A stretch of DNA of 64,000 nt from Pedococcus dokdonensis. GTDB lineage: Bacteria > Actinomycetota > Actinomycetes > Actinomycetales > Dermatophilaceae. The notes below the pieces were generated by a model. It was not told the DNA's origin. It saw only the letters and a program-made list of their open reading frames with translations, and did not search any database. The stretch is from the NCBI RefSeq assembly GCF_900104525.1, contig NZ_LT629711.1:3162001-3226000 (forward strand), given 5' to 3'. A program made the translations under genes and the position numbers. Positions 35,022 through 50,695 of this stretch are shown here, piece after piece (positions within the stretch are counted from its first letter, which is position 1; each line of letters begins with the position of its first letter).

Positions 35022-35047
35022 CGTGATGTGCCGCCAACGGCACCGTC
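35022..35047 (+). promoter_or_regulatory. ECF-type promoter 1 (CGTGAT-N16-CGTC)
   Basis: CGTGAT at 35022-35027, 16 bases, CGTC at 35044-35047; about 90 bases before the polytopic membrane protein. One of nine sites in this window with the same spacing. This one departs from TGTAAT at two positions, so it is less certain than the best members. Confidence 0.5.
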
Positions 35048-35136
35048 CCTGTGGGTAGGGGCAGCCGTCCCTGACCGGCCAGACCGAGGAGACGCTTCAT
35101 CGTGCCGCAGAACTGCGTCGCCTGCCTCGAACGGTC

Positions 35137-36633
35137 ATGACGTCGCAGCGAACCTCCGATGGCCAGTCGTCGGGGGAGCGGGTGTGGCCGGTCTGGCGGT
35201 CCTCGGTCGTCCTGGGTGTGCTCGCCACGGTCGCGATGGTCCTGCACATCTGCTGGCCCAGACCCGTGGGGCAGGCACCTCACCCGGATGGAGACCGGTA
35301 CCTCTGCCAGCTGAACGCACACTCGATGGTGCCCAGGGACGCAGCGGCCCCCAGATATTGGGACTACGCGCTGTTCCAGTGGATCCCGGGGGCGGAAATG
35401 GACCGGGGCTGCATCCAGTACCCGTCCTCCCAGGTGTGGATCCTGCGGGTCTTCGTCAAGCTGACCGAGTGGACCACGGGGAGCTCCGGCGCCCTGGATC
35501 TGCGTTGGGGGGTGGTCAGCTTCGCCGTGTTCGTCGGCCTGGCCGTGGGCCTGTTCGCAGCCATGGTCCGGCGAGACATCTGGCGCAGGATCGGGCTTTC
35601 CGCGCTGCTGCTCCTGGTCGTCGGGGACTCCACCTTCGCCTCGTACTCCGCCGGTCCGATGGGGGAGTTCCCCGGAATCCTGGGCGTCGTCATGGTCTGC
35701 CTGGCATCCGTGCTGCTGGGTCGACGAGGGCTGCAGCAGTGGGTCGGCCTGGGAGCCTTCGCGATGGGCTCAGGTCTGGTGCTGACGTCGAAGGTGCAAG
35801 CGGTCACGCTGGTCGTGCCGCTGGCCCTGTTCCTGGGAGCCACCTCGATGAGACCGTGGCCCGACCGCTCGGTGCTGCGCACGGTGCAGGCGAGCCCATC
35901 GGGTGGTTGGCGCGTGAAGGTGGCTCCGGTGCTCCTTGCGCTGGGCCTGCTCGCGCCCACGGCGTGGATGCTGGACAGCAACCCAGAGCAGTTCAGGTCG
36001 GTCAACGCGTGGGAGCTCATCTCCGTCGGAATCCTCGGCCCCAGCCACGATCCGGCCGGAGATCTCGCCGAGATGGGGTTGCCGGGTGCGTTGGTCAGGT
36101 ATGCGGGCAAGACGGCCTGTGACGACAACTGTGCGACCCTGAACGATCCCGTGTGGAGGGAGTCACGAGGCAGGTTCACGTACCGCGTTGCGGGGGAGTT
36201 CTTGCTCAGACACCCCGGTGTGGCCCTGGACATCGCGCAGGTGGCAGCGCAGGACTTCGCCACGGCACGGCCGGGCTATCTCGGCTCCTTTCCGCCGGGA
36301 CCGGGTCATGCGCCGCAGGAAAACGACCTGTCGCTCCTTGCATCCGGGCTGCAGCTGTTCCGGCCCCACGCCCTCCCGGTGCTCCTGGTCTCATGGGGCG
36401 TGCTGACAGCGTGTGCCGTGCGGCTCGGGCGCAGCGGGCAGCCAGGCTCGTGGCGCCGCGCGTTCGCTGGATCGGCCGGGTTGATGCTGTCCTTCTCGGT
36501 CGTCCAGTTCCTCACCGCCACCTACGGGGAGGCGATCGAGAACACCAAGCACCTGGTGCTGGCGATCCTGGCCTTCGCGCTGACCCTGGTGATGGCCCTC
36601 GCAGCCCGGCTGAGCGCCCCGACCCGGACCTGA
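35137..36633 (+). CDS. Polytopic membrane protein, glycosyltransferase-like
   Basis: 498 residues with roughly nine to eleven hydrophobic segments, a large extracellular loop after the first (DRYLCQLNAHSMVPRDAAAP) and another holding CDDNCATLNDPVWRESRGRF. The plan, an extracytoplasmic loop after helix 1 and a second near the C-terminus, resembles GT-C glycosyltransferases, but I see no firm catalytic motif. Sits behind an ECF-type promoter, linking it to the envelope regulon. Confidence 0.7.
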   Translation: MTSQRTSDGQSSGERVWPVWRSSVVLGVLATVAMVLHICWPRPVGQAPHPDGDRYLCQLNAHSMVPRDAAAPRYWDYALFQWIPGAEMDRGCIQYPSSQVWILRVFVKLTEWTTGSSGALDLRWGVVSFAVFVGLAVGLFAAMVRRDIWRRIGLSALLLLVVGDSTFASYSAGPMGEFPGILGVVMVCLASVLLGRRGLQQWVGLGAFAMGSGLVLTSKVQAVTLVVPLALFLGATSMRPWPDRSVLRTVQASPSGGWRVKVAPVLLALGLLAPTAWMLDSNPEQFRSVNAWELISVGILGPSHDPAGDLAEMGLPGALVRYAGKTACDDNCATLNDPVWRESRGRFTYRVAGEFLLRHPGVALDIAQVAAQDFATARPGYLGSFPPGPGHAPQENDLSLLASGLQLFRPHALPVLLVSWGVLTACAVRLGRSGQPGSWRRAFAGSAGLMLSFSVVQFLTATYGEAIENTKHLVLAILAFALTLVMALAARLSAPTRT

Positions 36634-36682
36634 CCGGCCGGTCGGGCGCGCAGGCGCCGCACTCAGTCATCGCGAGGGTTCG

Positions 36683-36808
36683 CTAGCAGACCTCGGGTTC
36701 GGCATCGAGGAACTCGGTGACCAGAGCGGCGGTCTCCTCGGCGGAGCTGATGATGAACAGGTGGCCGTCGTGCAGGACCTGGAGGCTGACCCGCGGTCCG
36801 TGCGCCGA
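36683..36808 (-). pseudogene. C-terminal fragment of alpha/beta hydrolase
   Basis: In frame with a TAG at 36683-36685 the minus strand reads VSLQVLHDGHLFIISSAEET then AALVTEFLDAEPEVC, the His-containing C-terminus of hydrolases related to polyhydroxyalkanoate depolymerases (D-D/G-G-H-L-F). Nothing upstream continues the domain, so it is a remnant. Confidence 0.55.
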
Positions 36809-36837
36809 GGACGTAGCTGTCGAAACTGAGCGAACCC

Positions 36838-37094
36838 ATGTTCGCTCGGCTGCTGCAGGTTTACCTGGCCACCAGCGACGCGCTGGACGGGTATGCCGGG
36901 CGGTTCAGCGGCACCGTCCGCGAGGCCGTCACTCCCGGGAGACGCGGCAGGGGCTCGACCCAGGGCGGGCCCGCGTCGTCGTCCACGCCCTGCTGATGAC
37001 CATCAACGACCTGGCCCGGACACCAGGTGTGGGTTCGAGACCGGACGCCGAGATGGTTCTCGGCGCGGTCGGGCGCCGGATCCTCGGCCTCTGA
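36838..37094 (+). pseudogene. TetR C-terminal remnant with frameshift
   Basis: ATG 36838 begins MFARLLQVYLATSDALDGYA; after about 35 codons homology shifts frame to ARVVVHALLMTINDLARTPG and ends DAEMVLGAVGRRILGL. Helices look like the C-terminal half of a TetR protein; no helix-turn-helix remains. It is adjacent to the hydrolase remnant, as though a deletion removed the middle of a divergent pair. Confidence 0.5.
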
Positions 37095-37101
37095 GGCCGG
37101 G

Positions 37102-37749
37102 TCAGGACGATGCTGCCCCTGCGTCGGCCGCGGGGTCGAGACGCGTGAAGGCGACCGAAGCCACCGCGCCGGCCGTCAGGCCCGCCGTGACGAACATCCA
37201 CAGGTTCGACCACGAGGTCAGGCCCATGATCGAGAGTGCCAGAGCCACCGCCGGGTTGAAGGCGCCGCCGCTGATCGGCCCGACTGCGGTCGCCCCCGCG
37301 AGTACGACGCCACCGATGGCGATTCCGTAGAACCCGTTCTTCGGATGGGAGTCGCTGGTCGCGACGTTGAGAACCGTGTAGGCCAGAGCAAACGTGAACA
37401 GGAACTCAGCCAGCCAGGCGGCAGCCAGCGCATGGCCCGACAGTGTCGGCGGTGCGCTGGTGGCGGTGGGGATGAGGAAACAGACGACTGTCGACCCGAG
37501 CGCTGCCCCGAGAAGCTGCGAGGCCCAGTAGGGGAGGAGCTGCGAACCAGCCAGCCGTCCACGAAGGTGCACGGCAAGGGTCACGGCGGGGTTGAGGTGG
37601 GCTCCGGACACGTGACCGTTGGCGTAGATCATCGCCGCCAGAACCGTGCCGATCGCAAGGGGAGCGGCAATGGGGTTCAGACGGACGGCACCGCCGATGG
37701 TGAGGGTGAGGAACATGGTGCCCACCAGCTCCGCTGCGTACTTGCGCAC
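37102..37749 (-). CDS. Aquaporin-family (MIP) channel
   Basis: 215 residues, six helices and both half-helix motifs: SGAHLNPAVTLAV and GGAFNPAVALAL (N-P-A twice). Starts MRKYAAELVGTMFLTLTIGG. Conducts water or small neutral solutes; selectivity cannot be fixed by eye. Preceded by an ECF-type promoter and a hairpin-containing leader of about 100 bases, which suggests it responds to envelope or osmotic stress with the rest of the regulon. Confidence 0.92.
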   Translation of the reverse strand: MRKYAAELVGTMFLTLTIGGAVRLNPIAAPLAIGTVLAAMIYANGHVSGAHLNPAVTLAVHLRGRLAGSQLLPYWASQLLGAALGSTVVCFLIPTATSAPPTLSGHALAAAWLAEFLFTFALAYTVLNVATSDSHPKNGFYGIAIGGVVLAGATAVGPISGGAFNPAVALALSIMGLTSWSNLWMFVTAGLTAGAVASVAFTRLDPAADAGAASS

Positions 37750-37790
37750 TCGATGTGTCTCCTCACGCCCGTTGCTGTCGCTCTGTTTGG

Positions 37791-37828
37791 CCGTCCGGGC
37801 CCGGGGTGAGGGGCCCGAGCCCGGACGG
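37791..37828 (-). terminator. Hairpin in aquaporin leader / terminator of upstream small gene
   Basis: CCGTCCGGGC and GCCCGGACGG form a 10-bp perfect stem around 18 bases that can pair further. It lies downstream of the ECF-type promoter at 37859-37884 and 42 bases before the aquaporin start, so it is either a terminator for the 53-residue protein gene or an attenuator. No U-run. Confidence 0.5.
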
Positions 37829-37858
37829 TGTTTCCCCCGGAGGGTCCCCTTCGGTATA

Positions 37859-37884
37859 GACGCGGTCCGAGCGGTGGTGTTACA
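37859..37884 (-). promoter_or_regulatory. ECF-type promoter 2 (TGTAAC-N16-CGTC)
   Basis: On the minus strand TGTAAC (37884-37879), 16 bases, CGTCTATA (from 37862). TGTAAC is the textbook -35 of several ECF sigma factors. Directs the aquaporin gene. Confidence 0.7.
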
Positions 37885-37938
37885 CCCTCCGCCCAGTCAT
37901 GCCACGATGCGGCCGCGCACCGCGGACTGAATCGGCGC

Positions 37939-38100
37939 TCAGCGCCGCTGTGCGGTGCGGCGCGCGACGGCCAGCACGATGAGTGCCGCGCCGAGCACGG
38001 CACCAGCGATGATCGCCAGCCACACGCCGTCCAGTCCCTGAGAGGCGATCCCGCCCATCGTCACTGCGCCGCCGGCATTGATCGCTGATACGCGGTACAT
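37939..38100 (-). CDS. 53-residue membrane peptide with C-terminal Arg cluster
   Basis: MYRVSAINAGGAVTMGGIAS then one hydrophobic helix (VWLAIIAGAVLGAALIVLAV) and tail ARRTAQRR. This looks like an isolated C-terminal sorting signal: short polar segment, membrane helix, arginine cluster. CGGAGAG precedes the ATG and an ECF-type promoter lies about 55 bases upstream. Candidate substrate of the exosortase-like protein at 42912. Confidence 0.72.
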   Translation of the reverse strand: MYRVSAINAGGAVTMGGIASQGLDGVWLAIIAGAVLGAALIVLAVARRTAQRR

Positions 38101-38153
38101 AGAAAACTCTCCGTCTCGGTTCGGTATGGCCCTGTAGGACCCTCGGACAAGAA

Positions 38154-38179
38154 GACGGGGGACAGCGGGACCTATTACA
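38154..38179 (-). promoter_or_regulatory. ECF-type promoter 3 (TGTAAT-N16-CGTC)
   Basis: Minus strand TGTAAT (38179-38174), 16 bases, CGTCTTCT (from 38157), about 55 bases before the 53-residue membrane peptide gene. Confidence 0.72.
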
Positions 38180-38292
38180 GAACGGCCCCGACGCTGCGCT
38201 GCCTTCGCTGCCGTGGATCGCGGTCGTGGCGGCTACGCGTGGCGCGACGCGTCCCCGTGCGACGGCGCGGTCATCGGCGCCGAATTCCCTTG

Positions 38293-38889
38293 CTACGGCT
38301 GGTCCGCCGCAGGGTAGCCGCGAACCCCGGACTGCAGCGCTTCCGCACCCGCGCACGTCCTCGCCCGACCCGGCTTCTGGGGGTACGAGACCTGTTTCGC
38401 GGATGCCGGGCCGGAAGGTTCGAAGGCGGTTCCCAGGACGACATCGACACCGGTGCCCACGCGGTGGTCGGCGACCAGGCGGCTGCCGGCGATCTGAGCA
38501 GCAGCCAGCCGCGCGCCCGGCAAACCGTCAGGGCCGTACCTGATGTCAGCCGCGTGATCGGTCCACAGGCTCTCGGGAGCGTTGGCGACCCCGCAGGTGC
38601 GGAACCCTGCGTGGGCTAGCTGGCTTGCCCCTGCGGCAGCCAGGCCGGTGCGTCCGGACCCGTTCAGAACTCGGAGGTCGAAGGAGTCCCGCGCGACGGA
38701 CACGGTCAGGACGACCTGACCTCGACTGGCCGGCGGTGGACGATGCCACAGTCCTAGGACGTAGGCGCTGGACAGGCTTGCTCCGCCAAGGGTAAGACCG
38801 GGAAGACACACGAACACCGCGACGCGGCGGAGCTGACGCCGCCGCCATACGTCGGGTGCCAGGGGCAGCGCATTCTTGCTCACAGCCAC
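38293..38889 (-). CDS. LytR C-terminal-domain protein, single membrane helix
   Basis: 198 residues: a short cytoplasmic N-terminus, one helix (VAVFVCLPGLTLGGASLSSA), then an extracellular LytR_C-like domain (RVLNGSGRTGLAAAGASQLA; GTGVDVVLGTAFEP). LytR_C domains occur beside wall-polymer ligases. Start is GTG 38889 or GTG 38883; AGTTAG-N16-CGTC (38918-38893) directly precedes it and might be a weaker ECF-type promoter giving a leaderless message. Cys-containing tail. Confidence 0.78.
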   Translation of the reverse strand: MAVSKNALPLAPDVWRRRQLRRVAVFVCLPGLTLGGASLSSAYVLGLWHRPPPASRGQVVLTVSVARDSFDLRVLNGSGRTGLAAAGASQLAHAGFRTCGVANAPESLWTDHAADIRYGPDGLPGARLAAAQIAGSRLVADHRVGTGVDVVLGTAFEPSGPASAKQVSYPQKPGRARTCAGAEALQSGVRGYPAADQP

Positions 38890-38989
38890 AGAGACGAGAG
38901 TTCCGTGGGGTTCTAACTCGGACCTGCGGCACTACGAGCACACGGCACCACGACGTGCAGCCTGGAGTCGGGCATACTCTGCCCGTCCA

Positions 38990-39004
38990 AGGGTCACTGA
39001 CCCT
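38990..39004 (+). promoter_or_regulatory. Candidate operator of the PucR-like gene
   Basis: AGGGTCACTGACCCT is a perfect 15-bp palindrome 35 bases before the start codon, following a -10-like CATACT (38973-38978). Suggests autoregulation by the downstream PucR-type protein; no second site seen. Confidence 0.45.
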
Positions 39005-39039
39005 CTCCCGCAGGGAACACTGTGGAGGCAACGACTTCG

Positions 39040-40460: not shown

Positions 40461-40486
40461 TGTTATGTGGGGCGCTCGTCTACGTC
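40461..40486 (+). promoter_or_regulatory. ECF-type promoter 4, autoregulation of sigma gene (TGTTAT-N16-CGTC)
   Basis: TGTTAT (40461-40466), 16 bases, CGTCCTCG (from 40483), 150 bases before the ECF sigma-factor start. Matching the motif at the regulon genes implies positive autoregulation, standard for ECF sigma factors. Confidence 0.7.
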
Positions 40487-40517
40487 CTCGTCTGTGTAGA
40501 CCCGTAGACGTTTTTTT
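40477..40517 (+). terminator. Hairpin with seven-T tract overlapping the sigma promoter
   Basis: CGTCTACG (40477-40484) pairs exactly with CGTAGACG (40503-40510), then TTTTTTT. An intrinsic terminator for pucR transcription; its first arm overlaps the -10 CGTC, so only read-through RNA and not sigma-initiated RNA can form the hairpin. Confidence 0.65.
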
Positions 40518-40529: not shown

Positions 40530-40646
40530 ATGTCGGGCGAGGACGTGTTCGCCGTGCAGTCGCGAGCTGGCGCGTGGCCGGCCTTGAACCGGCCAGGTCA
40601 GGTGCCAGGCGCCGGGTCGAAGTGGTGCAACCGACGTGAGCGCTGA
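40530..40646 (+). CDS. 38-residue upstream reading frame overlapping sigma gene
   Basis: MSGEDVFAVQSRAGAWPALN then a basic end (WCNRRER). GGAGG is eight bases before its ATG, one of the best ribosome-binding sites here, whereas the sigma GTG at 40636 has none. Its stop lies 8 bases inside the sigma gene in another frame, so it may be a leader peptide coupling sigma translation. Confidence 0.45.
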   Translation: MSGEDVFAVQSRAGAWPALNRPGQVPGAGSKWCNRRER

Positions 40647-42192
40647 CCTGCTCCCGGACGACCCCCAGGCCACTCGCAGCGACGCCGAGCTGCTGGACGC
40701 GGTTCGTGATGGCGACCAGGGAGCCTTCGGCGTTCTGTGGCACCGTCATCGGGATGCGGCGATGGCCACTGCGCGAACTCTGTCGAGGCGTCCGCACGAC
40801 GCTGAAGAGCTGGTCAGTGAAGCCTCCGTGCGGGTCCTGTCGGCCCTGCAGCGTGGGTCGGGCCCGCGGGTGGCCTTTCGGCCGTACCTCCTCACCACCA
40901 TTCGGCGGGTCGCCATCGACGTCTCCCGTGGTGGCCACGCCAGGCGAGTCCACCTGGTCAACGACGACGTTGCCTTGGAGGAGGCGGCACAGGTCAGCAG
41001 TCGCGACGCCGGCAGTGGTGGCGCGGCAGAGGCCGTTCTTGCCGCAGACGAGCATGCATTCGCGCGGGCTGCCTGGGCCGGGCTGGACGAGGAGTCGCAG
41101 CTGCTCCTATGGCACAACCTGATCGACGAACAGGGACCCAGTGCGTTGGCGACGCACCTGGGGATCAGTGCCGGTGCCGCGGCGGTGCGGTTGATGCGCG
41201 CGAAGGAGCGGTTGCGGCAGTCTTACCTGCAGCTCCACGTCGCCAGTGCCCAGTCGGCGCAGTGTCACTGGGTCCGGCAGCGTCTACCGGGCCTGGTCAG
41301 GGCTTCGTTGTCGGAGTCGGCGACCGCCAGGGTGCGAGAGCACCTGTCAACCTGCCAGGACTGCGAGCGGGCCTACTCCGATCTGGTCGCGGACGCTCCA
41401 CAGTTGCGTAAGTCGTTGAGCGCGGCCTTCCTCGGGGTGCCGCTGGTCTACCCCTCCGTGGCGTCGTGGTCGCCGCTCGCCACGACGGCCGCCGGCTCGA
41501 CCGCACCGATGCAGAGTCCCAGTCTCAGCGCCAGCGCCAGCCCCGGTCCTGGCCTGTCCCGGACTGTGCTGGAGGCTTCGACCAGGTGGGTCGTCGGCTC
41601 CGCCGCCGCCGCATCGGTGGCCGTCACGGTTGGGCTGCTCGTCGCCGGCCACGAAGCCAACCCGAAACCGCGCTCGGCCGCAAGACCCGCGCAGCTCGTC
41701 ACGGGCCCCGTGAACAACGCCGGGTCGCCGTCGTCCACGAGGACCTCCAGCGCGCCGGCCCTCGGCCGGGTCACGCCCAGCACGGTCCGTCCGACCACGG
41801 TTGCTTCCCTGGTGTCGCCGTCCCCGCAGGTGAGCCGGAGGCCGTCGGCCGGGCTCCCTACGGTGTCCGCGACGGTGTCGCCGACCGAGTCGCCGACGGT
41901 GTCGCCGACGGTGTCCGCGACGCTGTCGCCCACCGAGTCGCCCACGCTGTCGCCCACGCTGTCGCCCACGCTGTCGCCCACGCTGTCGCCCACGCTGTCG
42001 CCCACGCTGTCGCCCACGCTGTCGCCCACGCTGTCGCCCACGCTGTCGCCCACGCTGTCGCCCACGCTGTCGCCCACGCTGTCGCCCACGAGGCGGCCGA
42101 CGGCGTGGCCGACGGTGTCGCCCACCGGGACTCCGGGCCATCGTCCGCCGACCAGCAGCGTCACGATCCCCGTGCCCACCACCCCTCAGTGA
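40636..42192 (+). CDS. ECF sigma factor fused to zinc anti-sigma-like segment, membrane helix and SPTL repeats
   Basis: 518 residues. Sigma region 2 is residues 17-100 (DAELLDAVRDGDQGAFGVLW; RPYLLTTIRRVAIDVSRGGH) and region 4 about 140-197 (GPSALATHLGISAGAAAVRL). Residues 236-243 read HLSTCQDC, the H-x3-C-x2-C of ZAS anti-sigma factors. A membrane helix (about 317-337) and a C-terminal Ser/Thr/Pro region with twelve perfect S-P-T-L repeats follow, presumably outside the cell. So sensor, anti-sigma and sigma are one chain; release would need proteolysis. Convergent with whiB (7-base overlap). Likely master of the nine-promoter regulon. Confidence 0.85.
   Translation: MSADLLPDDPQATRSDAELLDAVRDGDQGAFGVLWHRHRDAAMATARTLSRRPHDAEELVSEASVRVLSALQRGSGPRVAFRPYLLTTIRRVAIDVSRGGHARRVHLVNDDVALEEAAQVSSRDAGSGGAAEAVLAADEHAFARAAWAGLDEESQLLLWHNLIDEQGPSALATHLGISAGAAAVRLMRAKERLRQSYLQLHVASAQSAQCHWVRQRLPGLVRASLSESATARVREHLSTCQDCERAYSDLVADAPQLRKSLSAAFLGVPLVYPSVASWSPLATTAAGSTAPMQSPSLSASASPGPGLSRTVLEASTRWVVGSAAAASVAVTVGLLVAGHEANPKPRSAARPAQLVTGPVNNAGSPSSTRTSSAPALGRVTPSTVRPTTVASLVSPSPQVSRRPSAGLPTVSATVSPTESPTVSPTVSATLSPTESPTLSPTLSPTLSPTLSPTLSPTLSPTLSPTLSPTLSPTLSPTLSPTLSPTRRPTAWPTVSPTGTPGHRPPTSSVTIPVPTTPQ
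41941..42084 (+). repeat. Twelve perfect 12-bp tandem repeats
   Basis: Unit CCCACGCTGTCG repeated twelve times without a mismatch, flanked by degenerate copies (about 41872-41940 and 42085-42125). Codes for the SPTL tail of the sigma protein. In-frame unit length permits copy-number variation without loss of the reading frame. Confidence 0.97.
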
Positions 42193-42611
42193 TCCGGTCG
42201 GCCGGGTGAGTGGTCGTCTCGGAGCTCGAGGTCCGGCGCAGCTGTCGAGGCCGTCGCATCCAGATGCCTGAGCAGGCTGCGCACCGCGCGGCGCTGTTCC
42301 TCGGACTGCCCGCCCCAGATGCCATGCCGCTCGTCGGCCGCCACGGCGTACTGGAGGCAGTGGCCGATCACCGGGCAGTTGGCGCAGAGCCTGGCGGCGT
42401 AGGCGCGCCTCTGGATGGGCGAGACATTCTTCGGGTGCTCTGGCCACCAGTGTTCGGGGTGCGGGGACGACCGGCAGAGTCCGTGGTCCCCGATCAGCTG
42501 ACGCCGCTGACGTAGCTCCAGTCCCGAAAGCGACGCTGTCAGGGTCACCGCCTGTTCACTGCCGGGGTCAGCCGAGTGGTTCGAGGTGGTCGGTGCGGCG
42601 AGGTTGGTCAT
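42186..42611 (-). CDS. WhiB-family iron-sulfur regulator
   Basis: 141 residues. Four Cys in the WhiB order: GDHGLC, then RLCANCPVIGHC (C-x2-C-x5-C), followed by the G-(I/V)-W-G-G turn in ERHGIWGGQSEEQRRAVRSL. Binds a [4Fe-4S] cluster and usually partners a sigma factor. Divergent from the exosortase operon, with back-to-back ECF-type promoters between, and convergent with the sigma gene; probably a redox- or NO-sensing modulator of the same regulon. Confidence 0.93.
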   Translation of the reverse strand: MTNLAAPTTSNHSADPGSEQAVTLTASLSGLELRQRRQLIGDHGLCRSSPHPEHWWPEHPKNVSPIQRRAYAARLCANCPVIGHCLQYAVAADERHGIWGGQSEEQRRAVRSLLRHLDATASTAAPDLELRDDHSPGRPDH

Positions 42612-42687
42612 GGGCGCTGGTCTCTCTCGCTGTGCGTGCGGGAATCGCTCGGCCGGGCACACCAGGCACCGAGCCGTTCGCTGGGAT

Positions 42688-42713
42688 GACGATCGAGGAC
42701 TGGCGGTATTACC
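42688..42713 (-). promoter_or_regulatory. ECF-type promoter 5 (GGTAAT-N16-CGTC)
   Basis: Minus strand GGTAAT (42713-42708), 16 bases, CGTCATCC (from 42691), 77 bases before the whiB-like start. The 300-base gap 42612-42911 holds this and promoter 6 and no gene. Confidence 0.65.
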
Positions 42714-42761: not shown

Positions 42762-42787
42762 TGTAATGCGCCTCTGGCAGATCCGTC
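42762..42787 (+). promoter_or_regulatory. ECF-type promoter 6 (TGTAAT-N16-CGTC)
   Basis: TGTAATGCG starts at 42762 and CCGTCTCTA ends at 42791, with the same spacing and same extended bases as promoter 9 before the beta-helix protein; the two share 17 of these bases plus a following AAG. Drives the exosortase operon. Confidence 0.82.
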
Positions 42788-42911: not shown

Positions 42912-43463
42912 ATGACCCCGGACGTCTCCGTTGACCTGGCGCCCCCACGTCAGAAACCGAACCAGCTCGCGTCGCGGGCCATGGCAGTCGCTTTGCTGCT
43001 GGTCGGCGCGGCCCTGATGGTGGAGAACGCGGTAGTGCGTGGCTACGAGGCGGGTCTGCTCACCCTCGTGCTGAAGGCACTGGGCCAGCCGGCTGTACGC
43101 GCCGGATCAACGGTGTTCTTCTCGGACACCAGCGGCGCCGTCGGCCTCCAGCTGACGTTCGGCTGCTCCGTCGGACCGCTCATCGCCTTGTTTGCCCTCT
43201 GCGCCGCCGTGATCTGCTGGTACCGGGCGGCACCCGTGGTGACTGCCGTGCTGGCGATACTCGCGCTGTCGGCGGCCTTCGTCGTGTGCAACCAGATCCG
43301 ACTGCTGGCGATCATCTTCGCGATCAAGAGGTGGGGGATCGACCCGGGGTACGAGGTCTCCCACGTCTTCGTCGGGTCCTTGATCACCACGGTCGGCTTC
43401 GTCACCGGGGTCTACGTCTTCGCCCGCATTCTCTCGCGGGCGCGCGCCCAGGCGCCGGCATGA
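42912..43463 (+). CDS. Exosortase/archaeosortase-like membrane transpeptidase
   Basis: 183 residues with five or six helices. The family triad is visible: Cys85 in LTFGCSVGPL, Arg130 in VVCNQIRLLA and His151 in GYEVSHVFVG. Exosortases cut C-terminal sorting signals of secreted proteins and pass them to an acceptor. This is a short form. ATG 42912 has GAGAAAG upstream; 42885 is an alternative. ATGA overlap with the glycosyltransferase. I cannot assign it to a numbered exosortase subfamily. Confidence 0.85.
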   Translation: MTPDVSVDLAPPRQKPNQLASRAMAVALLLVGAALMVENAVVRGYEAGLLTLVLKALGQPAVRAGSTVFFSDTSGAVGLQLTFGCSVGPLIALFALCAAVICWYRAAPVVTAVLAILALSAAFVVCNQIRLLAIIFAIKRWGIDPGYEVSHVFVGSLITTVGFVTGVYVFARILSRARAQAPA

Positions 43464-44986
43464 TCGGACTGGATGTCGTCAACGGCCTCGCCGTTGTCCT
43501 CTGCGTCGTCTTCATCTCGTACGTGTTCGCCATCCTGCTGCCCTTCATGCGGCGGACCGTGGCGAGCACGGGTGACCCGGACAGGTACGAGTGGCATTTC
43601 ATCATTCCCTGCCTCGACGAGGAGGCGGTCATCGAGAGCTCGGTCGCACAGCTGCGCCGGGATCATCCGGCCGCGCATCTGTGGTGCATCGACGACGACT
43701 CCGCTGACTCCACCGGGACGATCCTTGCGCGCCTGCAGGCCGGGGACCCGCAGATCCACCTGGTGAGCCGTCGCGCACCCGACGCCAGGCAGGGCAAGGG
43801 AGAGGCGCTCAACGCGGCGTGGCGCCGCCTGACGGCCTTCCGGCTGGAGGCCGCGAGTCCTCGGCCGGAGACCGACGTGATCGTGGGTGTCCTGGACGCC
43901 GACGGCCGACTGGACCCGGACGCGTTGCGCGTCATCAGTGGCGAGTCCGGCTTCGCGGATCCACAGGTCGGTGCCGTGCAGCTCCAGGTGCGCATGATCA
44001 ACCGAGGGATCGACCGCCCTGACGGCGACCATCCGGCGGCCTCAGGACGGTTGGGCCGCACGCTCGTCCTGTTGCAGGACCTCGAGTTCCGCACCGTCAT
44101 CGCTGCGATGCAGCACTTCAGACACCGGATGTCGAGCGCTGGAATGGGCGGTAACGGTCAGTTCAGCCGGCTCAGCGCCCTCAACGCCGTGGCCGAAGGA
44201 CATGACTCGCCGTGGCACGGATCCCTTTTGGAGGACTTCGAGTTCGGTCTGCACGTGCTCCTGGTCGGCCTGCGAAACAGCTACTGCCATGACGCCTGGG
44301 TGGCGCAGGAGGCGCTGCCTTCGGCCCGCAAGCTGATCAGACAGCGGGCCCGGTGGGCCCAGGGCGGTATGCAGTGTGCCAAGTACTTCCGGCGGGTGCT
44401 CACGAGTCCGTGGCTGTCCACCGCCGCCGCCATCGAGATCGCCTACTTCCTGCTCATTCCCTGGACCCAGATCCTGGGCAGTCTCGTCTACGCGGCGGCC
44501 TCCGTCGTCATGATCTACTTCGCACTCACCACGGTCGGCGGCCCGATCGCCTGGCTGACCCACGGAGCCTGGGGGATCATCCCGCTCGCGGTCCTGTTCG
44601 GGTTCCTTCCCCTGGCGATCTGGGCGCTTGCCTACAAGCTGCGCTGCGAGCCGGACACCTCGTGGCGTCGGACCCTCGCTCTGGCGGTCGGCTACTGGCT
44701 CTACACCTACCTCATGCTCCTCTCGGTCTGGAGCGGTCTGTTCAGACTCGTCCGGGGCAGAACGGGTGGGCGAAGACCCAGCGGGTGGCCGCCCAGTCCG
44801 ATCCGGCCCGAGCGGCGTCACCGGGTGAAGCACCGACACCGGTCCACAGTTCCGCGAGTCCGCCCCGCGACCGCCCGTCCGTGGCTCCTGGGCCACCGCG
44901 GCACCGGGGGCCCTCACGCAGCTCTGCAGCCGCCGTCCGACTGCGCAGGCTGCTCCGACCGCGACCGGGCGAGCCACGCCCCCTGA
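43460..44986 (+). CDS. Membrane glycosyltransferase, GT2 (processive type)
   Basis: 508 residues. Helix 1 near VVLCVVFISYVFAILLPFMR, then GT-A motifs WHFIIPCLDEEAVIESSVAQ, CIDDDSADSTG, VLDADGRLDPD and LLEDFEFG, and the product-channel motif IRQRARWAQGG (Q-R-x-R-W), with further C-terminal helices. Such enzymes build or export polysaccharide (hyaluronan/cellulose/NdvC-like). The last 70 residues are basic and low complexity. Translationally coupled to the exosortase-like gene. Confidence 0.9.
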   Translation: MIGLDVVNGLAVVLCVVFISYVFAILLPFMRRTVASTGDPDRYEWHFIIPCLDEEAVIESSVAQLRRDHPAAHLWCIDDDSADSTGTILARLQAGDPQIHLVSRRAPDARQGKGEALNAAWRRLTAFRLEAASPRPETDVIVGVLDADGRLDPDALRVISGESGFADPQVGAVQLQVRMINRGIDRPDGDHPAASGRLGRTLVLLQDLEFRTVIAAMQHFRHRMSSAGMGGNGQFSRLSALNAVAEGHDSPWHGSLLEDFEFGLHVLLVGLRNSYCHDAWVAQEALPSARKLIRQRARWAQGGMQCAKYFRRVLTSPWLSTAAAIEIAYFLLIPWTQILGSLVYAAASVVMIYFALTTVGGPIAWLTHGAWGIIPLAVLFGFLPLAIWALAYKLRCEPDTSWRRTLALAVGYWLYTYLMLLSVWSGLFRLVRGRTGGRRPSGWPPSPIRPERRHRVKHRHRSTVPRVRPATARPWLLGHRGTGGPHAALQPPSDCAGCSDRDRASHAP

Positions 44987-45141: not shown

Positions 45142-46347
45142 ATGCACCATGATCTGTCGCCCTCACCGAAACCCACCGCAGACAACGCGCCCCTCGTCCA
45201 TGTCATCGTGGGCACCCGACCCGAAGCAGTGAAGGTCGCCCCGATGATGACGGCGATGCGACGGGCCGGTCTGAACCCGTTGCTGATCGACACCGGCCAA
45301 CAACCGGGCAGAGTGGCCGAGGCGATCGCGCCCTTCGGCCTGACGCCAGACATCGGCCTCGACATCGAGCGCCGTGCGGGCTCGCTGCGCGAGCTGATCA
45401 ACCTCGTCAGCGACGCTGTCGACCGCCTGCTCGACACGCAGCTGCCTGCAGCCGTGCTCGTGCAGGGCGACACCACCACAGCCATGGCGGTGGCTCTCAC
45501 CGCACATCTGCGCCAGGTGCCGGTGGTGCATCTCGAAGCCGGACTGCGCACCGGTGACCCTCGAAATCCCTTTCCCGAGGAGACCAACCGCCGCCTGATC
45601 GCAGACCTCGCCGACCTCCACCTTGCCCCGACACCTCGCGCTGCGCGGGCGCTCGCGCTGGAGGGTCGCGACGGACACAGGGTGGTCGTCACAGGAAACA
45701 CCGTGGTCGACGCGCTGGCCACGCTCCTGCCTGCCGCTCGCGCCCGGACCGCAAGCGCGCAGGACGGGCGCCTGATGCGCCACCTGGTGGTGACCGTCCA
45801 TCGACGCGAGGCCTGGGGCGAGGGGGTGCGGACCGTGGCGGGCAGCGTTCGTGAGCTCCTGGCGCGATACCCCGACCTCCGGGCGTCAGTGGTCACGCAC
45901 CCCAACCCCGTGGTCGCTGCCGACGTGGAGTCGGTCCTTGCGGGCACCGATCGCTGTGACCTGCTGCCTCCTCAGCCCTACGACGACATGTTGACCCTGC
46001 TGTGCAGTGCCGACGTCGTGCTCACGGACTCGGGAGGCCTCCAGGAGGAGGCGCCGTCGATCGGGGTTCCCGCAGTCGTGACGCGATGGACGACGGAGCG
46101 TCCCGAGGGAGTCGAGGCGGGCTGGGCCGACCTCGTCGGCCTCGATCGAGCCGCAATTCTCGAGGCCGTGTCTCGCAGACTCGATGATCCGACCCGCCCC
46201 GATACCGGCAATCCCTATGGCGACGGTGCGGCTGCCGACCGGTCGGCAGCCGCGGTCAGGTGGCTGCTCGGTGGAGGCGCCCGGCCCGAGGACTGGGCTG
46301 GCCCCGCGATGACTTCTCACGCCGATGATCTCGCGTCGACGCGCTAA
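45142..46347 (+). CDS. UDP-N-acetylglucosamine 2-epimerase (WecB-like)
   Basis: 401 residues. HVIVGTRPEAVKVAPMMTAM (G-T-R-P-E), QGDTTTAMAVALTAHLRQVP, VHLEAGLRTGDPRNPFPEET, VTVHRREAWGEG and DSGGLQEEAPSIGVPAVVTR are all family signatures with catalytic acidic residues present. Produces UDP-ManNAc for wall or capsule polymer. ATG 45142 chosen. It overlaps the sortase gene by 23 bases, so sugar precursor and anchoring are coexpressed. Confidence 0.94.
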   Translation: MHHDLSPSPKPTADNAPLVHVIVGTRPEAVKVAPMMTAMRRAGLNPLLIDTGQQPGRVAEAIAPFGLTPDIGLDIERRAGSLRELINLVSDAVDRLLDTQLPAAVLVQGDTTTAMAVALTAHLRQVPVVHLEAGLRTGDPRNPFPEETNRRLIADLADLHLAPTPRAARALALEGRDGHRVVVTGNTVVDALATLLPAARARTASAQDGRLMRHLVVTVHRREAWGEGVRTVAGSVRELLARYPDLRASVVTHPNPVVAADVESVLAGTDRCDLLPPQPYDDMLTLLCSADVVLTDSGGLQEEAPSIGVPAVVTRWTTERPEGVEAGWADLVGLDRAAILEAVSRRLDDPTRPDTGNPYGDGAAADRSAAAVRWLLGGGARPEDWAGPAMTSHADDLASTR

Positions 46348-47047
46348 CGCCCTCCGCGTGATCCTGGCCGCAGTGCTCATCGCAGCGGCCGGCATCAGCG
46401 CGGTGCTCCTGATCCGGGGCCAGACCCCCCCGACGTTATGGGTGGCTCCCCTGCCGGGCCAGGATCCGTCCGAGGCTGCTCCCAAGGTGGTCCTGGGCGC
46501 AGACGACGTCCCGGCCCAGGCCGCTCTGCCCATGCTCGATCCGCTGACGATCCACATACCCGTTCTCGAGGTCAGCGGTCACATCGGTCTGGCCACCGTT
46601 GACGGCGACGGCGTACTGGACCCCCCGCACGTCTCCACCACCGTGGGGCTCTGGCCAGGATCGGCCTCGTTGGCCTCCGACACGGGTGAGGTCACCATCG
46701 CCGGCCACGTCAACTGGGCTGGAATGAGCCCGTTCACCTTCGGCAAACTGGCCTACCTCAAGCGTGGAAACACGATCTACACCAGCGATGCGTCCGGAAG
46801 GGTCACCCGCTGGAGGGTCGCCAGCGTGAGCGCCCGGGGCAAGTCCGAACCCGTCGACCACGGTGCCTTCCGGGGTGCTGTCGGGCCCCGAAGGCTCGCG
46901 CTCATCACGTGTGGCGGATCGTTCGACGCCGAGCGGAGGTCATATGTCGACAACGTCTACGTGTATGCCGACCCCGTGACGACTCCGCGGCAGGCAGCGA
47001 GGAAGGGTGTCACCGCACCGAAGAGTGCGACCGGAGCCCGCGGATGA
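46325..47047 (+). CDS. Class F-like sortase
   Basis: 240 residues. N-terminal membrane anchor (ALRVILAAVLIAAAGISAVL), then sortase barrel: TVGLWPGSASLASDTGEVTI, catalytic His in AGHVNWAG, Cys in LALITCGGSFD and Arg in ERRSYVDNVYVYAD. Class F sortases attach surface proteins in actinobacteria; which substrates it uses is unclear as no LPxTG protein is in the window. Last gene of the exosortase operon. Confidence 0.9.
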   Translation: MISRRRANALRVILAAVLIAAAGISAVLLIRGQTPPTLWVAPLPGQDPSEAAPKVVLGADDVPAQAALPMLDPLTIHIPVLEVSGHIGLATVDGDGVLDPPHVSTTVGLWPGSASLASDTGEVTIAGHVNWAGMSPFTFGKLAYLKRGNTIYTSDASGRVTRWRVASVSARGKSEPVDHGAFRGAVGPRRLALITCGGSFDAERRSYVDNVYVYADPVTTPRQAARKGVTAPKSATGARG

Positions 47048-47068
47048 TGCGAAGTGACGGCCTGCGGG

Positions 47069-47094
47069 TGTGATATTCCGACCTCGACTTCGTC
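47069..47094 (+). promoter_or_regulatory. ECF-type promoter 7 (TGTGAT-N16-CGTC)
   Basis: TGTGAT (47069-47074), 16 bases, CGTCTCCG (from 47091), 98 bases before the 91-residue protein. Confidence 0.65.
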
Positions 47095-47191
47095 TCCGTC
47101 AGTGACGGGCCGACGGCGTGCACCCCTACCGCCGGGGCCAGTCCAGGCGAAACGTCTGCGGCTCTAAGTGGTCATCTGATTTGGAGAAATC

Positions 47192-47467
47192 ATGGAATAT
47201 GACGAACTCATGAGTGCCTTGAGTGACGACAGGATCAGCGACTTCCTGGTCGCGATGGAGCTCTCGGAGCTGGATCTGCCACACATCGTGCTGACTCGCG
47301 GTGACGACTTCGGAGTCGTCACGTACTCGGGCCCCTACCTGCATGCTGTGGACGCCTTGACCGCGGCCGAAGCCCAGCATCGGATCCAGGTCAACAGCGG
47401 TGGCGGTGATCTCACGTTTCATGTGGCGGCTCTCTATCCCGACGATGACCTCACCGACACGGACTGA
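47192..47467 (+). CDS. Small conserved protein, 91 residues (paralogue A)
   Basis: MEYDELMSALSDDRISDFLV with SELDLPHIVLTRGDDF, YSGPYLHAVDALTAAEAQ and LTFHVAALYPDDD. These blocks recur in the minus-strand gene at 49999-50454, so the two form a family within this locus. GGAGAAAT precedes ATG. No signal peptide; acidic; function unknown but regulated with the envelope genes. The 270 bases after it show no convincing gene before 47738. Confidence 0.82.
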   Translation: MEYDELMSALSDDRISDFLVAMELSELDLPHIVLTRGDDFGVVTYSGPYLHAVDALTAAEAQHRIQVNSGGGDLTFHVAALYPDDDLTDTD

Positions 47468-47737
47468 CTTCGAGCGCAGACCGAGCCAGCAGCAGCCTTG
47501 TGCCCTGCTGGACGATCGCGCCAGTCTCCCCCTGCCACCTCCCAGTCCGGCACAGCACGGAGCAACCACCCACCCATGCACGTTTCAGACCCGTTCTTCT
47601 TCAGGGTGCACCGCCTCAGCCCGACTCGACCTGCCAGCACCAGCAGCCAGGCCATGCCTGCATGCAGCTACACCGCCACTGGCTGGCCACCCCGCGACAT
47701 GATCGTCGAGACCCAACCACGTCAGGGGACCACGTCC

Positions 47738-48040
47738 ATGGACCAGGCCGTGACGCGCACCCTCGCAGCTGTGGACGCGCTGCTCTCCTGCGCTGAGGGA
47801 ACGCCGCCCGGCCCGGATCGTCTTCAGCTGGCCAACCTCCTGCTGCGTGTCCAGGGCGATCTGGTTACCCACGGCGCCAAGACCTTCCAGGTGCCCGGCG
47901 AGATTCCCGCCCCCCTGTCGAGTGCGGTGGGATCGGCCCTGTTGGCGCTGGAGGACCTGGCCCCACTGCCCGGTCGCAACGACCTGCAGGAGCGGGTGGC
48001 CGAGCTGCGATCGGCGGTCCAGGGCGCCCGGCTGCACTAG
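47738..48040 (+). CDS. Hypothetical helical protein, 100 residues
   Basis: MDQAVTRTLAAVDALLSCAE then RLQLANLLLRVQGDLVTHGA and LQERVAELRSAVQGARLH: mostly alpha-helical. AGGGGA lies before ATG 47738. A possible weak ECF-type site (CATGAT-N16-CGTC, 47698-47723) precedes it. No homology recognised. Confidence 0.6.
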   Translation: MDQAVTRTLAAVDALLSCAEGTPPGPDRLQLANLLLRVQGDLVTHGAKTFQVPGEIPAPLSSAVGSALLALEDLAPLPGRNDLQERVAELRSAVQGARLH

Positions 48041-48073
48041 CAGCGACACCACGGCACTCTGCGACCCGAGCCC

Positions 48074-48268
48074 ATGACACCTGTCTACCCAGCCACCTCC
48101 GCAGCCCTGGTGGCGCTTCTCCTGGCCGTCGTCTCGCTCATCCTGGGCTCCAGCACGGCGGTGCTGCTGCTGTTGCGTCGCCCGGGAGGCACGGCCGCGT
48201 CCATGGTGCTGGTGCTGTCGATGGTCTGCGCGGGGGTCTTCGCGTCGTGGGCGGACCAACCGTGGTGA
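48074..48268 (+). CDS. Small two-helix membrane protein, 64 residues
   Basis: MTPVYPATSAALVALLLAVV and SMVLVLSMVCAGVFASWADQ are two membrane segments joined by a basic turn (LLRRPGG). Lies 33 bases after the helical protein, probably cotranscribed. Function unknown. Confidence 0.6.
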   Translation: MTPVYPATSAALVALLLAVVSLILGSSTAVLLLLRRPGGTAASMVLVLSMVCAGVFASWADQPW

Positions 48269-48312
48269 ACGGGTGTGACGCGACGGCCGACCAGCCCGGC
48301 GGCCGCCGGTGG

Positions 48313-48338
48313 AGTAATGGTCGAGGACGTCGTCCGTC
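48313..48338 (+). promoter_or_regulatory. ECF-type promoter 8 (AGTAAT-N16-CGTC)
   Basis: AGTAAT (48313-48318), 16 bases, CGTCCTTC (from 48335), 81 bases before the 88-residue protein/carboxypeptidase pair. Confidence 0.62.
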
Positions 48339-48418
48339 CTTCTCGGTGTGACAGCCCCGCGAGGATCGGACCTCGTGGCCGGACGTCGTCACCCCCGCCA
48401 GGAAAGGCCAGGACTGCT

Positions 48419-48685
48419 ATGAGTGCCACCATCGTGACCCGCCTCCGTCAGAGCCAGCGACTGGCAGCCGCGCTCGACGCAGTCGTCGAGGCCGAGGCTC
48501 GAGCGGAGGCTGCCGAGGTGCGACTGGAGCGGGTGCGGGCCATTCTCGTCGCCGCCCTCGTGGAGCACCGCAGCACCATCACGCACGCGGAACCGGCCTT
48601 CGGCCGGATGCTGCCGTGCAGCGCCAACGCGCGGGTCGCCGCCGCCTTGAGTGCCGCCACGGCCGACGACCGCCAAGGCCGGTGA
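48419..48685 (+). CDS. Small helical protein, 88 residues
   Basis: MSATIVTRLRQSQRLAAALD then EAEARAEAAEVRLERVRAIL: a likely coiled coil. GGAAAGG precedes the ATG. Its TGA overlaps the GTG of the carboxypeptidase gene. Possibly a partner of the coiled-coil half of that protein. Confidence 0.65.
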   Translation: MSATIVTRLRQSQRLAAALDAVVEAEARAEAAEVRLERVRAILVAALVEHRSTITHAEPAFGRMLPCSANARVAAALSAATADDRQGR

Positions 48686-49964
48686 GAGGAGTCCGGGTTC
48701 GGGTCGCGCTGCGGCTGACCACCGTGGCGGTGCTGGTCGTCGGGGTGGTCGGGTTCGCGGTGGTCGGGGCCGCGGGTGCGGCACCGGCGCCGAAAGACAG
48801 CGGAAAGTACGGTGGTGGCCGGCAGTCGACCTTCGACGAGCAGGGTCTGCCCGCGGACGAGCTGGAACGACAGCTCGCGGCGGGACGACGGCTCCAGACC
48901 AGCATCGCTGCCACGAACCGTCAGCTCGCAATGGCGACCGCTCGACTGAAGGTCGTCTCCGATCATGCCAACGAGGTGCTGCAGGCCTACGCCACCGCGG
49001 TCGAGCAGGCACAGCTGGCCCATGCGGAGAAACAGCACCAGCTGGCCATCGAGCGAGCGCTGAGCGCCCAGCTCGCCCGTGACCGCCGGACCCTTGCGGA
49101 CGTGGCCTACCGGATCTACGCCGACGGCGAGGGTGCCTTGGGCGACCTGGGGAGAATGATCGACCTGTTGGGTGCCTCGCCGCAGGAGGCGTCCGGCACC
49201 GCCGCTCAGCTGGCATACCTCGGCGACCGCCGGGGCGACGCGGTGCGGCAGCTGCAGGCCACGGTGCAGGCGCAAGCGGCTGCGGCGCGAGCGGCTGATG
49301 CCGCCAGCGACAAGGCCGAGACTTCGGCTCAGCGGGCCGCGGCAGCCAAGCGGGAGGTGGAGGCGGCGGTCGCCGACCAACGACGCGAGCTCGACGTCCT
49401 CCGCGACCGCTATGCCACGCAGGTGGCCGAGTCCGGCCCCATCGCCGGCTTGCTCCTCGGGAGCAGCGACCGCAAGGCCGCTGCCCTGTCGCGTGAGCTG
49501 ATGGCGGCCGGGGCCGATGCGGGTGCGCTCGGCAGTGGCGCGCGGGTGCCCTGCAGCGCGAATGTCGGCGCCTACCCCAACGGGCAGTTCCCCGAGAGCG
49601 CACTCTGCCCCTCTACGGCGCGAAGAACCAACGCCTGCGCCCTGCTGCAGCCGCGGCGTTCAACGCGATGAGCCGCGCCTACCTGCGCGACACCGGCTCG
49701 CCGCTGTGCGTCACGGACTCGTACCGGTCCTACGACGAGCAGGTCAGGATCAAGGCAACCCGTGGGCGATGGGCGGCAACGCCGGGCACCAGCAACCACG
49801 GCCGCGGTCTCGCGGTCGACCTGTGCGGCGGGGTCGCGAGCTTCGGCTCGCCAGCCCACCTGTGGCTGCGCCAGAACGCCCCCCTCTACGGCTGGTTCCA
49901 CCCCGCCTGGGCGGAGCCGTCCGGGGCGCTGCCGGAACCATGGCACTGGGAGTATGCCGCCTGA
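48682..49964 (+). CDS. Secreted coiled-coil / VanY-type D,D-carboxypeptidase with -1 frameshift
   Basis: GTG 48682 gives a signal peptide (VALRLTTVAVLVVGVVGFAV), then about 230 residues of coiled coil like the PcsB/CwlO N-terminus. The frame then runs ESALCPSTARR to a stop at 49671, while the -1 frame continues CPLYGAKNQRLRPAA and encodes a complete VanY domain: TDSYRSYDEQVRIKATRG, GTSNHGRGLAVDLCGG (S-N-H-G-x-G-x-A-x-D) and EPWHWEYAA. The switch lies at a C-run, 49608-49611. A sequencing error, inactivating deletion or programmed slip are all possible; both halves are well preserved. Confidence 0.75.
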
Positions 49965-49998
49965 GGACACGATCGCCTGCTCGCACCTCGGCGACGGC

Positions 49999-50454
49999 TC
50001 AGGCCCGCTGGTGACGGTGGCGGGTGTGGATCACGTCGGCGATGCGGCTCAGCCAGCCGCTGATCCGGTGCGTCGGGTCGGGCGCCGGGCCAGCCGTGGG
50101 CACTGCGCCGTCGACCGGCCGAGCCGCGTCGGCGCGACCGCCTGCGACACAGTCGCCGACCCCGCCGGGCGGTAGGCGGGGAGTCTCGAAAGGAGGGTAG
50201 ATGGCGGCCACGTGGAAGGTGACCTCCCCGACTCCGCCGGCCGCACGCTCCACCCGGTTCTGGATCTCGGCGGCCATCAACGCCTCGAGCGCCGAAGGAT
50301 ACGGTCCGGAGAAGGAGTCGACATCGGCGCCGGGCGCTCGGCAGATCACCACGTGCGGCAGGTCGATCTCGGAGGCCTCGAGGTCGTAGAGCAGCCTCGT
50401 GAAGTTCCAGGGGTCCCGTGCCTGCGGTTCGCCGAGAGCGTCGTGATCGGGCAT
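49999..50454 (-). CDS. Paralogue B of the 91-residue protein, with C-terminal tail
   Basis: 151 residues from ATG 50454, which has GGAGG seven bases upstream. EIDLPHVVICRAPGADVDSF, SGPYPSALEALMAAEIQNRV and EVTFHVAAIYPP align block for block with the product of 47192. The last 50 residues (tail ending DVIHTRHRHQRA) are unique. Function unknown. Confidence 0.75.
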   Translation of the reverse strand: MPDHDALGEPQARDPWNFTRLLYDLEASEIDLPHVVICRAPGADVDSFSGPYPSALEALMAAEIQNRVERAAGGVGEVTFHVAAIYPPFETPRLPPGGVGDCVAGGRADAARPVDGAVPTAGPAPDPTHRISGWLSRIADVIHTRHRHQRA

Positions 50455-50669
50455 CGGCGCACCTCCGGGAGCAGGTCTGGCGAGGGCAGTTCGACGTGCT
50501 GGCGATCGCGGCACGTGCGCGTCCACCGACAAGCAAGATCGCAGCGCGGCGCACGGCAGCGCTCGTGCACGCCGACAAATCTGCGGTTGCCGATCGTGCT
50601 GCGGGACAACCCGAGATTCCCGTCCGCACCTCGAGCGCCGCCACCCCCGGAGCAATCTGGGCCGCGCCG

Positions 50670-50695
50670 TGTAATGCGGCCCGCCCAGGCCCGTC
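50670..50695 (+). promoter_or_regulatory. ECF-type promoter 9 (TGTAAT-N16-CGTC)
   Basis: TGTAATGCG begins at 50670 and CCGTCTCTA ends at 50699, with identical spacing to promoter 6. It is about 180 bases before the beta-helix protein. The rest of 50455-50873 contains no gene that I can support. Confidence 0.82.

Follow-up and report, generated by a model that had tools for sequence, protein, structure and literature searches.

The closest described relatives of the system reported here are sigma factors of the extracytoplasmic function (ECF) type to which an anti-sigma-like region is fused. PMC8999054 gives activation by proteolysis as expected for fused ECF48, ECF52 and ECF53 and as shown for the IutY-type (ECF243). 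ECF52 is represented by SCO4117 of Streptomyces coelicolor, an actinobacterial protein with an ECF domain, a zinc finger, a membrane helix and a proline-rich extension; it also has a carbohydrate-binding domain and a pleiotropic role in development. PMC5826349 suggests positive autoregulation of SCO4117, gives the motif CSGYN-17bps-SRHA for ECF52, mentions a differing motif prediction by Pinto and Mascher 2016, and states that the promoter read by ECF52 has yet to be identified unequivocally. An ECF sigma gene of similar layout was found in a 64,000-nucleotide stretch of the Pedococcus dokdonensis genome (contig NZ_LT629711.1, positions 3,162,001 to 3,226,000), here called the window and used for all coordinates. 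It lies among nine sites of the form xGTnAY-N16-CGTC (Y, T or C). Its product is probably a membrane-tethered sigma which reads these sites at its own gene and at up to eight neighbouring units, as a self-amplifying single-locus switch for surface proteins.

By architecture the window sigma can be likened to the fused ECF48, ECF53 and IutY-type proteins, but it differs from them in a repetitive proline-rich stalk. It shares with ECF52 the four elements named above. The differences from ECF52 are the promoter, TGTAAT-N16-CGTC in the window against the published motif, the lack of a detectable carbohydrate-binding domain and a local surface regulon in place of the pleiotropic role.

Sigma-54 regulates PEP-CTERM/exosortase genes in Gram-negative bacteria. 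In that case too an alternative sigma acts on exosortase-linked surface genes, as is proposed here, although sigma class and phylum differ. One RpoN-dependent case is reported (PMC9850573). The exosortase genes of the window resemble the XrtP system (NF012139, NF053846), in which an exosortase stands beside an XrtP-type glycosyltransferase, a UDP-N-acetylglucosamine (UDP-GlcNAc) 2-epimerase, a small protein of the 'MY...' type and a surface protein. In contrast to that system, the exosortase of the window scores under the XrtP cut-off, and its MY gene is displaced by about 4.8 kb and lacks the TG motif of most others. Among the papers listed by our literature search, which mostly lacks subscription literature and was judged mainly by title, none dealt with a link between exosortases and ECF sigma factors or with the regulation of actinobacterial XrtP systems.

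The nine sites had been listed in an initial annotation of the window, and all of them were found with the letters, coordinates, strands and 16-base spacer given there; the observation is real. The sites at 42762 and 50670 also share the flanking bases TGTAATGCG and CCGTCTCTA, as annotated. The distance to the gene, given as 55-180 bases, was slightly narrow. Counted from where the -35 begins to the nearest start codon downstream it is 69-249 bases, the upper value arising because site 50670 lies 249 bases from the GTG start at 50919. The site at 40461 lies 69 bases from a leader open reading frame (ORF) at 40530 and 175 bases from the sigma start. A matrix covering the -35 hexamer plus the -10 region was built from the nine sites and run over 127,946 window positions on both strands. 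Ranks 1-9 were exactly the nine sites, all non-coding and properly oriented, and the score dropped from 14.9 to 12.6 bits after the ninth, the tenth position being inside a called gene. On leaving each site out in turn the ranks were 1, 2, 2, 6, 8, 9, 11, 13 and 20, with the sites at 37884 (rank 20) and 35022 (rank 13) as the weakest. The literal rule GTnAY-N16-CGTC has five further matches in the window (12123, 23083, 29895, 46077 and 51381, all on the + strand) which the initial annotation had left unlisted. All five score under the nine; those at 29895, 46077 and 51381 are within the 24 top-scoring positions, and all three fall inside called genes.

The N16 excess is local to the cluster. 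Between 35000 and 50720 the rule matched 10 times at N16 against 0-4 times at each of twelve other spacers (N10-N22), and in the rest of the window 4 times at N16 and 1-11 times at other spacers. A pattern-free scan of all pairs of 5-mers and 4-mers with gaps of 10-23, with the tandem array of the sigma gene masked, returned the nine-site motif at the top, and its best P was equalled in none of 200 first-order Markov shuffles. GTAAT-N16-CGTC has seven copies in the complete genome (3.94 Mb), and five of these fall into a 12.6-kb part of the window. The remaining two lie outside the cluster (G000:C1:1275384 and 3550820), and none of the genes neighbouring these two (loci L104 and L105) has an obvious envelope role. 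The sites, with the ranks from the leave-one-out analysis where given, and the genes of the cluster are as follows.

35022-35047 (+), predicted promoter CGTGAT-N16-CGTC, weaker (rank 13), before the membrane protein gene 35182-36633
35182-36633 (+), predicted polytopic membrane protein, without a Pfam family at E<=0.001
37102-37749 (-), MIP/aquaporin-like channel (TIGR00861 97.4 bits, under the cut-off of 171.25)
37859-37884 (-), predicted promoter TGTAAC-N16-CGTC, weakest (rank 20), before the aquaporin-like gene
37939-38100 (-), membrane protein of the 'MY...' type, 53 amino acids (aa), likened by eye to the XrtP-adjacent proteins of relatives
38154-38179 (-), predicted promoter TGTAAT-N16-CGTC (rank 1), before the MY protein gene
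40461-40486 (+), predicted autoregulatory promoter TGTTAT-N16-CGTC (rank 11), before the leader ORF and the sigma gene
40530-40646 (+), leader ORF of 38 codons that runs into the sigma start, with a GGAGG ribosome site
40636-42192 (+), ECF sigma with zf-HC2, hydrophobic helix and proline-rich tail, placed by Pfam match and open frame
41860-42122 (+), in-frame array of about 22 tandem 12-bp copies, encoding the SPTL stalk
42186-42611 (-), WhiB-like regulator (PF02467 59.6 bits, cut-off 23.6, scored on the ORF 42186-42662)
42688-42713 (-), predicted promoter GGTAAT-N16-CGTC, before the whiB-like gene
42762-42787 (+), predicted promoter TGTAAT-N16-CGTC (rank 2), before the exosortase operon
42912-43463 (+), exosortase of the XrtP/XrtR/XrtS kind (PF09721 28.1 bits, cut-off 25.7)
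43460-44986 (+), XrtP-associated glycosyltransferase (NF053846 522.6 bits, over the cut-off of 520)
45142-46347 (+), non-hydrolysing UDP-GlcNAc 2-epimerase (TIGR00236 307.9, cut-off 210.15)
46325-47047 (+), sortase, class F-like (PF04203 49.8, over 26.6; NF033748 74.4, under 166)
47069-47094 (+), predicted promoter TGTGAT-N16-CGTC, before the small SGPY protein gene
47192-47467 (+), small SGPY-family protein
48313-48338 (+), predicted promoter AGTAAT-N16-CGTC, before the genes at 48419 and 48682
48419-49964 (+), small protein, secreted coiled-coil protein and VanY-type carboxypeptidase ORF
49999-50454 (-), second SGPY-family protein, preceded by none of the nine sites
50670-50695 (+), predicted promoter TGTAAT-N16-CGTC (rank 2), before the surface protein gene
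50919-53156 (+), secreted surface protein with a C-terminal hydrophobic helix and an arginine-rich tail, its sorting signal assigned by eye

The gene list of the initial annotation (an ECF sigma, a whiB-like gene, an exosortase operon, an aquaporin, membrane proteins and a surface protein) stands with corrections. They concern the sigma, described below, the 'small protein' behind site 38179, which can be refined to a 53-aa protein of the type found beside XrtP exosortases, and the carboxypeptidase, whose frame is separate from that of the preceding coiled-coil ORF. The start of the WhiB-like gene at 42611 was picked by eye.

The sigma, annotated simply as an ECF sigma factor, continues into an anti-sigma-like domain, one membrane helix and a proline-rich stalk, all in a single fusion protein. 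The product of 518 aa matched PF04542 (region 2) with 44.5 bits over 24 and the ECF superfamily model TIGR02937 at residues 32-195 with 52 bits over 42.9. On these two models it is an ECF sigma, with sigma-70 regions 2 and 4 only; the Pfam model of region 4 gave no score on it. A zf-HC2 zinc finger (PF13490, 28.3 bits over 22.2) is situated at residues 210-243, and C210, H236 and C240 are invariant in 9 aligned sequences, the window included. It is followed by a hydrophobic helix at about residues 319-337 (hydropathy 2.13) and by an extension with 21% proline beyond residue 345, which is encoded on the 12-bp tandem array. Zinc finger, transmembrane helix and proline-rich extension thus all correspond to ECF52. 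Past the membrane helix no Pfam model, of a carbohydrate-binding domain or otherwise, scored over its cut-off, and only a PT-repeat came just under. From its sequence the protein is a membrane-anchored fusion of a sigma with a zinc-finger anti-sigma-like domain, ECF52-like in layout. The codon-based gene caller passed over this gene. It is the only match to the fused-sigma query in its own genome at E<=1e-10, and the genome holds 24 matches to sigma-70 region 2. The length of the SPTL-repeat stalk could vary between strains.

The predicted promoter at 40461 is placed upstream of the sigma gene, and the same layout is also found upstream of the sigmas of relatives; autoregulation is predicted on this ground. 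The overlap of the leader ORF with the sigma start possibly provides translational coupling. A terminator-like hairpin with a T run is present at about 40478-40516, 3' of a CdaR-like upstream gene, and either overlaps the -10 of the predicted sigma promoter or lies next to it.

Relatives of the sigma were collected with its sigma and zinc-finger region as query. At E<=1e-10 they turned up in 14 of 58 genomes, and at E<=1e-25 in 114 of the 396 sampled from the order, the own genome being included in both counts; a close-relative scan of genome contigs with the sigma as query gave no match. Five of ten other genomes of the same genus contain together seven fused-sigma loci, and all seven were examined. 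In these loci CGTCA[CT]-N17-GTC[CT] occurs 30 times, 20 of them upstream of genes and non-coding by our own gene calls, against 1-10 matches, with 0-1 upstream, at each of twelve other spacers (11-23). The general form xGTnAY-N17-GTCY is the xGTnAY-N16 of the initial annotation plus one base and GTC, so that spacing and -10 are alike and the -35 letters are different, TGTAAT in the window and CGTCAY in the relatives. The N17 motif precedes the sigma gene, or an operon of a small SGPY protein and the sigma, in all seven loci. Eleven other fused-sigma loci showed a smaller N17 peak (6 upstream against at most 1), and at 22 XrtP loci without a fused sigma, where no excess of the sites that precede the window system was seen, there was no N17 peak (2 upstream at N17, likewise 2 at N22). 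Among 125 fused sigmas (ORFs of at least 300 aa, the window included and shorter ones dropped; 121 with a zinc-finger-like motif), GTnAY-Nk-GTCY is present within 350 base pairs (bp) upstream in 25 at k=17 and in 1-5 at each of twelve other spacings (11-23). In genome G003, 11 of the 54 genome-wide CGTCAY-N17-GTCY matches fall into two short clusters, which coincide with its pair of sigma loci, and the regulons of relatives therefore also look local. CGTCAC in the relatives was tried as a -10, for which no -35 was found; reading it as a -35 fitted instead. A dyad scan limited to CGTn tails, run on 41 stretches none longer than 20 kb, gave an output dominated by repeats and coding bias. The gene caller put genes on the wrong strand in some of the relatives' loci. 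Surface proteins of the LA[FY]TG type are paired with fused sigmas in the same-genus loci L090 (6550-8709), L091 (7453-8793) and L093 (11212-12525), and their genes carry a CGTCAY-N17-GTCY promoter.

The -35 letters were compared with the recognition helix after alignment of region 4, with the window left out and one site taken per sigma. Glutamine at helix position 9 goes with CGTAAT or CGTGAT, that is A or G at -35 position 4, in six of seven sigmas, while all of the 17 others have C there (Fisher 5e-5). Arginine at helix position 10 is found in 5 of the 125 fused sigmas, among them the window. The other two valine-arginine sigmas have TGTCAT upstream (L101, and L151, in which the -10 is GTC plus a letter outside the rule), and the two alanine-arginine sigmas have GGTCAT and CGTCAT. 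The T at the first -35 position of the window fits the valine-arginine relatives.

The exosortase scored over the generic models PF09721 and TIGR04178 and under the specific ones: 55.6 against 200 for XrtP (NF012139), 65.4 against 145 for XrtS, the best of them, and also under for XrtR. Likewise the sortase passes the general sortase model and not that of class F. The XrtP glycosyltransferase has 41 matches in 38 of the 396 genomes of the order. A fused sigma is located within 10 kb of five of them, namely in the window and in G341, G147, G256 and G298; excluding the window this is 4 of 40 against 0.1 expected for assumed 4-Mb genomes (P 4e-6). In G147 (L071) the N17 motif precedes the fused sigma and, divergently, an operon of substrate, MY protein, glycosyltransferase and exosortase. 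In G298 the epimerase gene and others of the locus are preceded by N17 motifs, three in all, and two more are inside called genes. L230 (Paraoerskovia marina), one of 80 named XrtP loci, shares the motifs of the G147 locus, and the two probably go back to a single record; the divergent site of L230 was not counted as upstream because the gene caller put wrong-strand genes there.

The MY protein of the window matched no family model. With a simple regular expression, MY-type ORFs were recovered at 13 of the 25 other XrtP loci scanned (14 ORFs, one being a start inside a longer gene). Although the MY gene of the window stands apart from the exosortase, its site scores highest of all; the gene may therefore go with the exosortase operon. 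The surface protein 50919-53156 had no Pfam match over cut-off and is, from its sequence, a candidate substrate of the exosortase or sortase. SGPY proteins have invariant PH and SGPY motifs and are encoded directly upstream of fused sigmas in the genus (L089-L093, L095). A search of 5.8 billion proteins with the SGPY protein of the window, in which shared 5-residue words were required, returned itself and one other. Its AlphaFold model has a mean predicted local distance difference test (pLDDT) score of 84.5, and comparison with the PDB gave no convincing match (best Foldseek E 0.24). The SGPY proteins may be partners of the switch.

Several results weigh against a self-activating sigma with a local regulon or narrow its reach. 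The initial annotation had named a missing genome-wide excess of N16 as one result that would speak against its regulon, and formally this is the outcome: outside the cluster TGTnAY-CGTC has no N16 preference (counts of 11, 23, 17, 10 and 27 for N14-N18). The regulon is therefore local and not genome-wide. In the same genus, CGTCAY-N17-GTCY is similarly frequent per genome with a fused sigma (48, 54, 55, 57, 55) and without one (39, 64, 54, 50, 36). The motif is absent within 350 bp upstream of 100 of the 125 fused sigmas. Of the 23 from the genus best represented in the sample, a single one carries it, and the layout thus cannot be called universal. In the window the -10 of the sigma promoter is near or within the terminator-like hairpin, whose energy is ordinary (z -0.57). 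Among the loci which join a fused sigma with XrtP genes, G341 and G256 (L060, L061) have no N17-GTC site before the sigma. Only four of the 80 named XrtP loci contain a sigma relative, two of the four with a zinc-finger motif; the link is thus recurrent but not general. Other XrtP loci contribute 13 MY genes, and an N17 match within 300 bp was seen for just one of them, that of L086, where it is apparently inside the preceding gene. In the helix comparison the six glutamine-type sigmas with A or G all come from one genus, and the covariation therefore represents few independent events; L187, counted as C, also has a G-type site that the one-site rule set aside; and the A which the window mostly has at -35 position 4 is left unaccounted for by the comparison.

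Among other explanations, the one with a substantial though minority share is that no more than the five to seven strongest sites are genuine, 35022, 37884 and possibly 40461 being chance matches selected for their fit. These three have the lowest leave-one-out ranks (13, 20 and 11), 35022 and 37884 are at the cluster edge, and 40461 has its -10 by the hairpin. Against it, all nine are non-coding, oriented and above every other position, in a matrix that was built from them. That the sites are read by a different sigma of the genome, the fused sigma being merely a member of the regulon, is unlikely. The 24 region 2 matches provide candidates, and TGTAAT in the window departs from the CGTCAY of the relatives' fused sigmas. 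But the cluster itself holds the genome's only match to the fused-sigma query, the layout recurs upstream of fused sigmas in relatives, and the window shares the rare arginine at helix position 10 with the two valine-arginine sigmas preceded by TGTCAT.

WhiB proteins act at promoter -35 regions, and the whiB gene sits in the cluster and has its own site; the WhiB-like protein or another transcription factor might then bind the sites, with an incidental likeness to ECF promoters. We give this slightly less weight still, as the two-block strict spacing, the ECF-type -10 and the position-specific covariation with the sigma helix suit a sigma factor better, and as tblastn with the whiB product of the window gave nothing at E<=1e-5 in the fused-sigma loci of the genus, though the promoter layout is conserved there. 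Finally, the cluster might be produced by chance or composition on reading many patterns, the rule having been chosen post hoc from the sites and having no genome-wide N16 excess; the shuffle-tested pattern-free scan, the genome-wide clustering and the independent recurrence in relatives make this very improbable.

The view of the initial annotation, a single ECF system that activates itself and a local envelope regulon, is therefore the reading best supported by comparison, the layout recurring upstream of the relatives' fused sigmas and of neighbouring surface-protein genes. Motif, spacing, clustering, fused architecture and conservation of the layout are seen at the sequence level; from these we infer the binding of the sigma to its sites, a signal, proteolysis by a protease and a physiological role. 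The sigma would be held at the membrane by its built-in zinc-finger anti-sigma-like domain and single helix, with the long proline-rich repeat stalk outside. A surface signal would lead, probably as in the literature on fused ECF sigmas, to proteolysis of the membrane part and release of the sigma domain. The freed sigma may then read xGTnAY-N16-CGTC, here mostly TGTAAT-N16-CGTC, before its own gene and activate itself. Its other putative targets are the operon of XrtP-like exosortase, glycosyltransferase, epimerase and sortase, the MY protein, the WhiB regulator, the surface protein and the SGPY protein, and the predicted outcome is that a kit for surface-protein modification and anchoring is turned on.

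A wider proposal, to which we give somewhat less than an even chance, is that the membrane-tethered fused ECF sigmas make up a family of such single-locus switches, in which each sigma would have a private xGTnAY-N17-GTCY whose x and n co-evolve with recognition-helix residues, and would control only the adjacent surface kit, here an exosortase system. For a poorly understood fused-sigma family the locus and its relatives provide a sharp, testable promoter signature with a spacer control and helix/-35 covariation. They also offer a candidate regulator for an actinobacterial exosortase system, together with a conserved unnamed small protein as its possible partner. If confirmed, this could allow surface-protein regulons to be predicted from the sigma sequence.

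Two further features of the cluster were observed. The coiled-coil ORF 48682-49671 is followed by the VanY-type ORF 49668-49964 (+) in another frame with a 4-base overlap, and the pair looks like one frameshift-split gene or two coupled genes. A Cei-like envelope integrity protein is encoded at 38293-38703 (-) within the cluster (NF035953, under its cut-off), and homologues of it are also close to the fused sigmas in L089 and L092.

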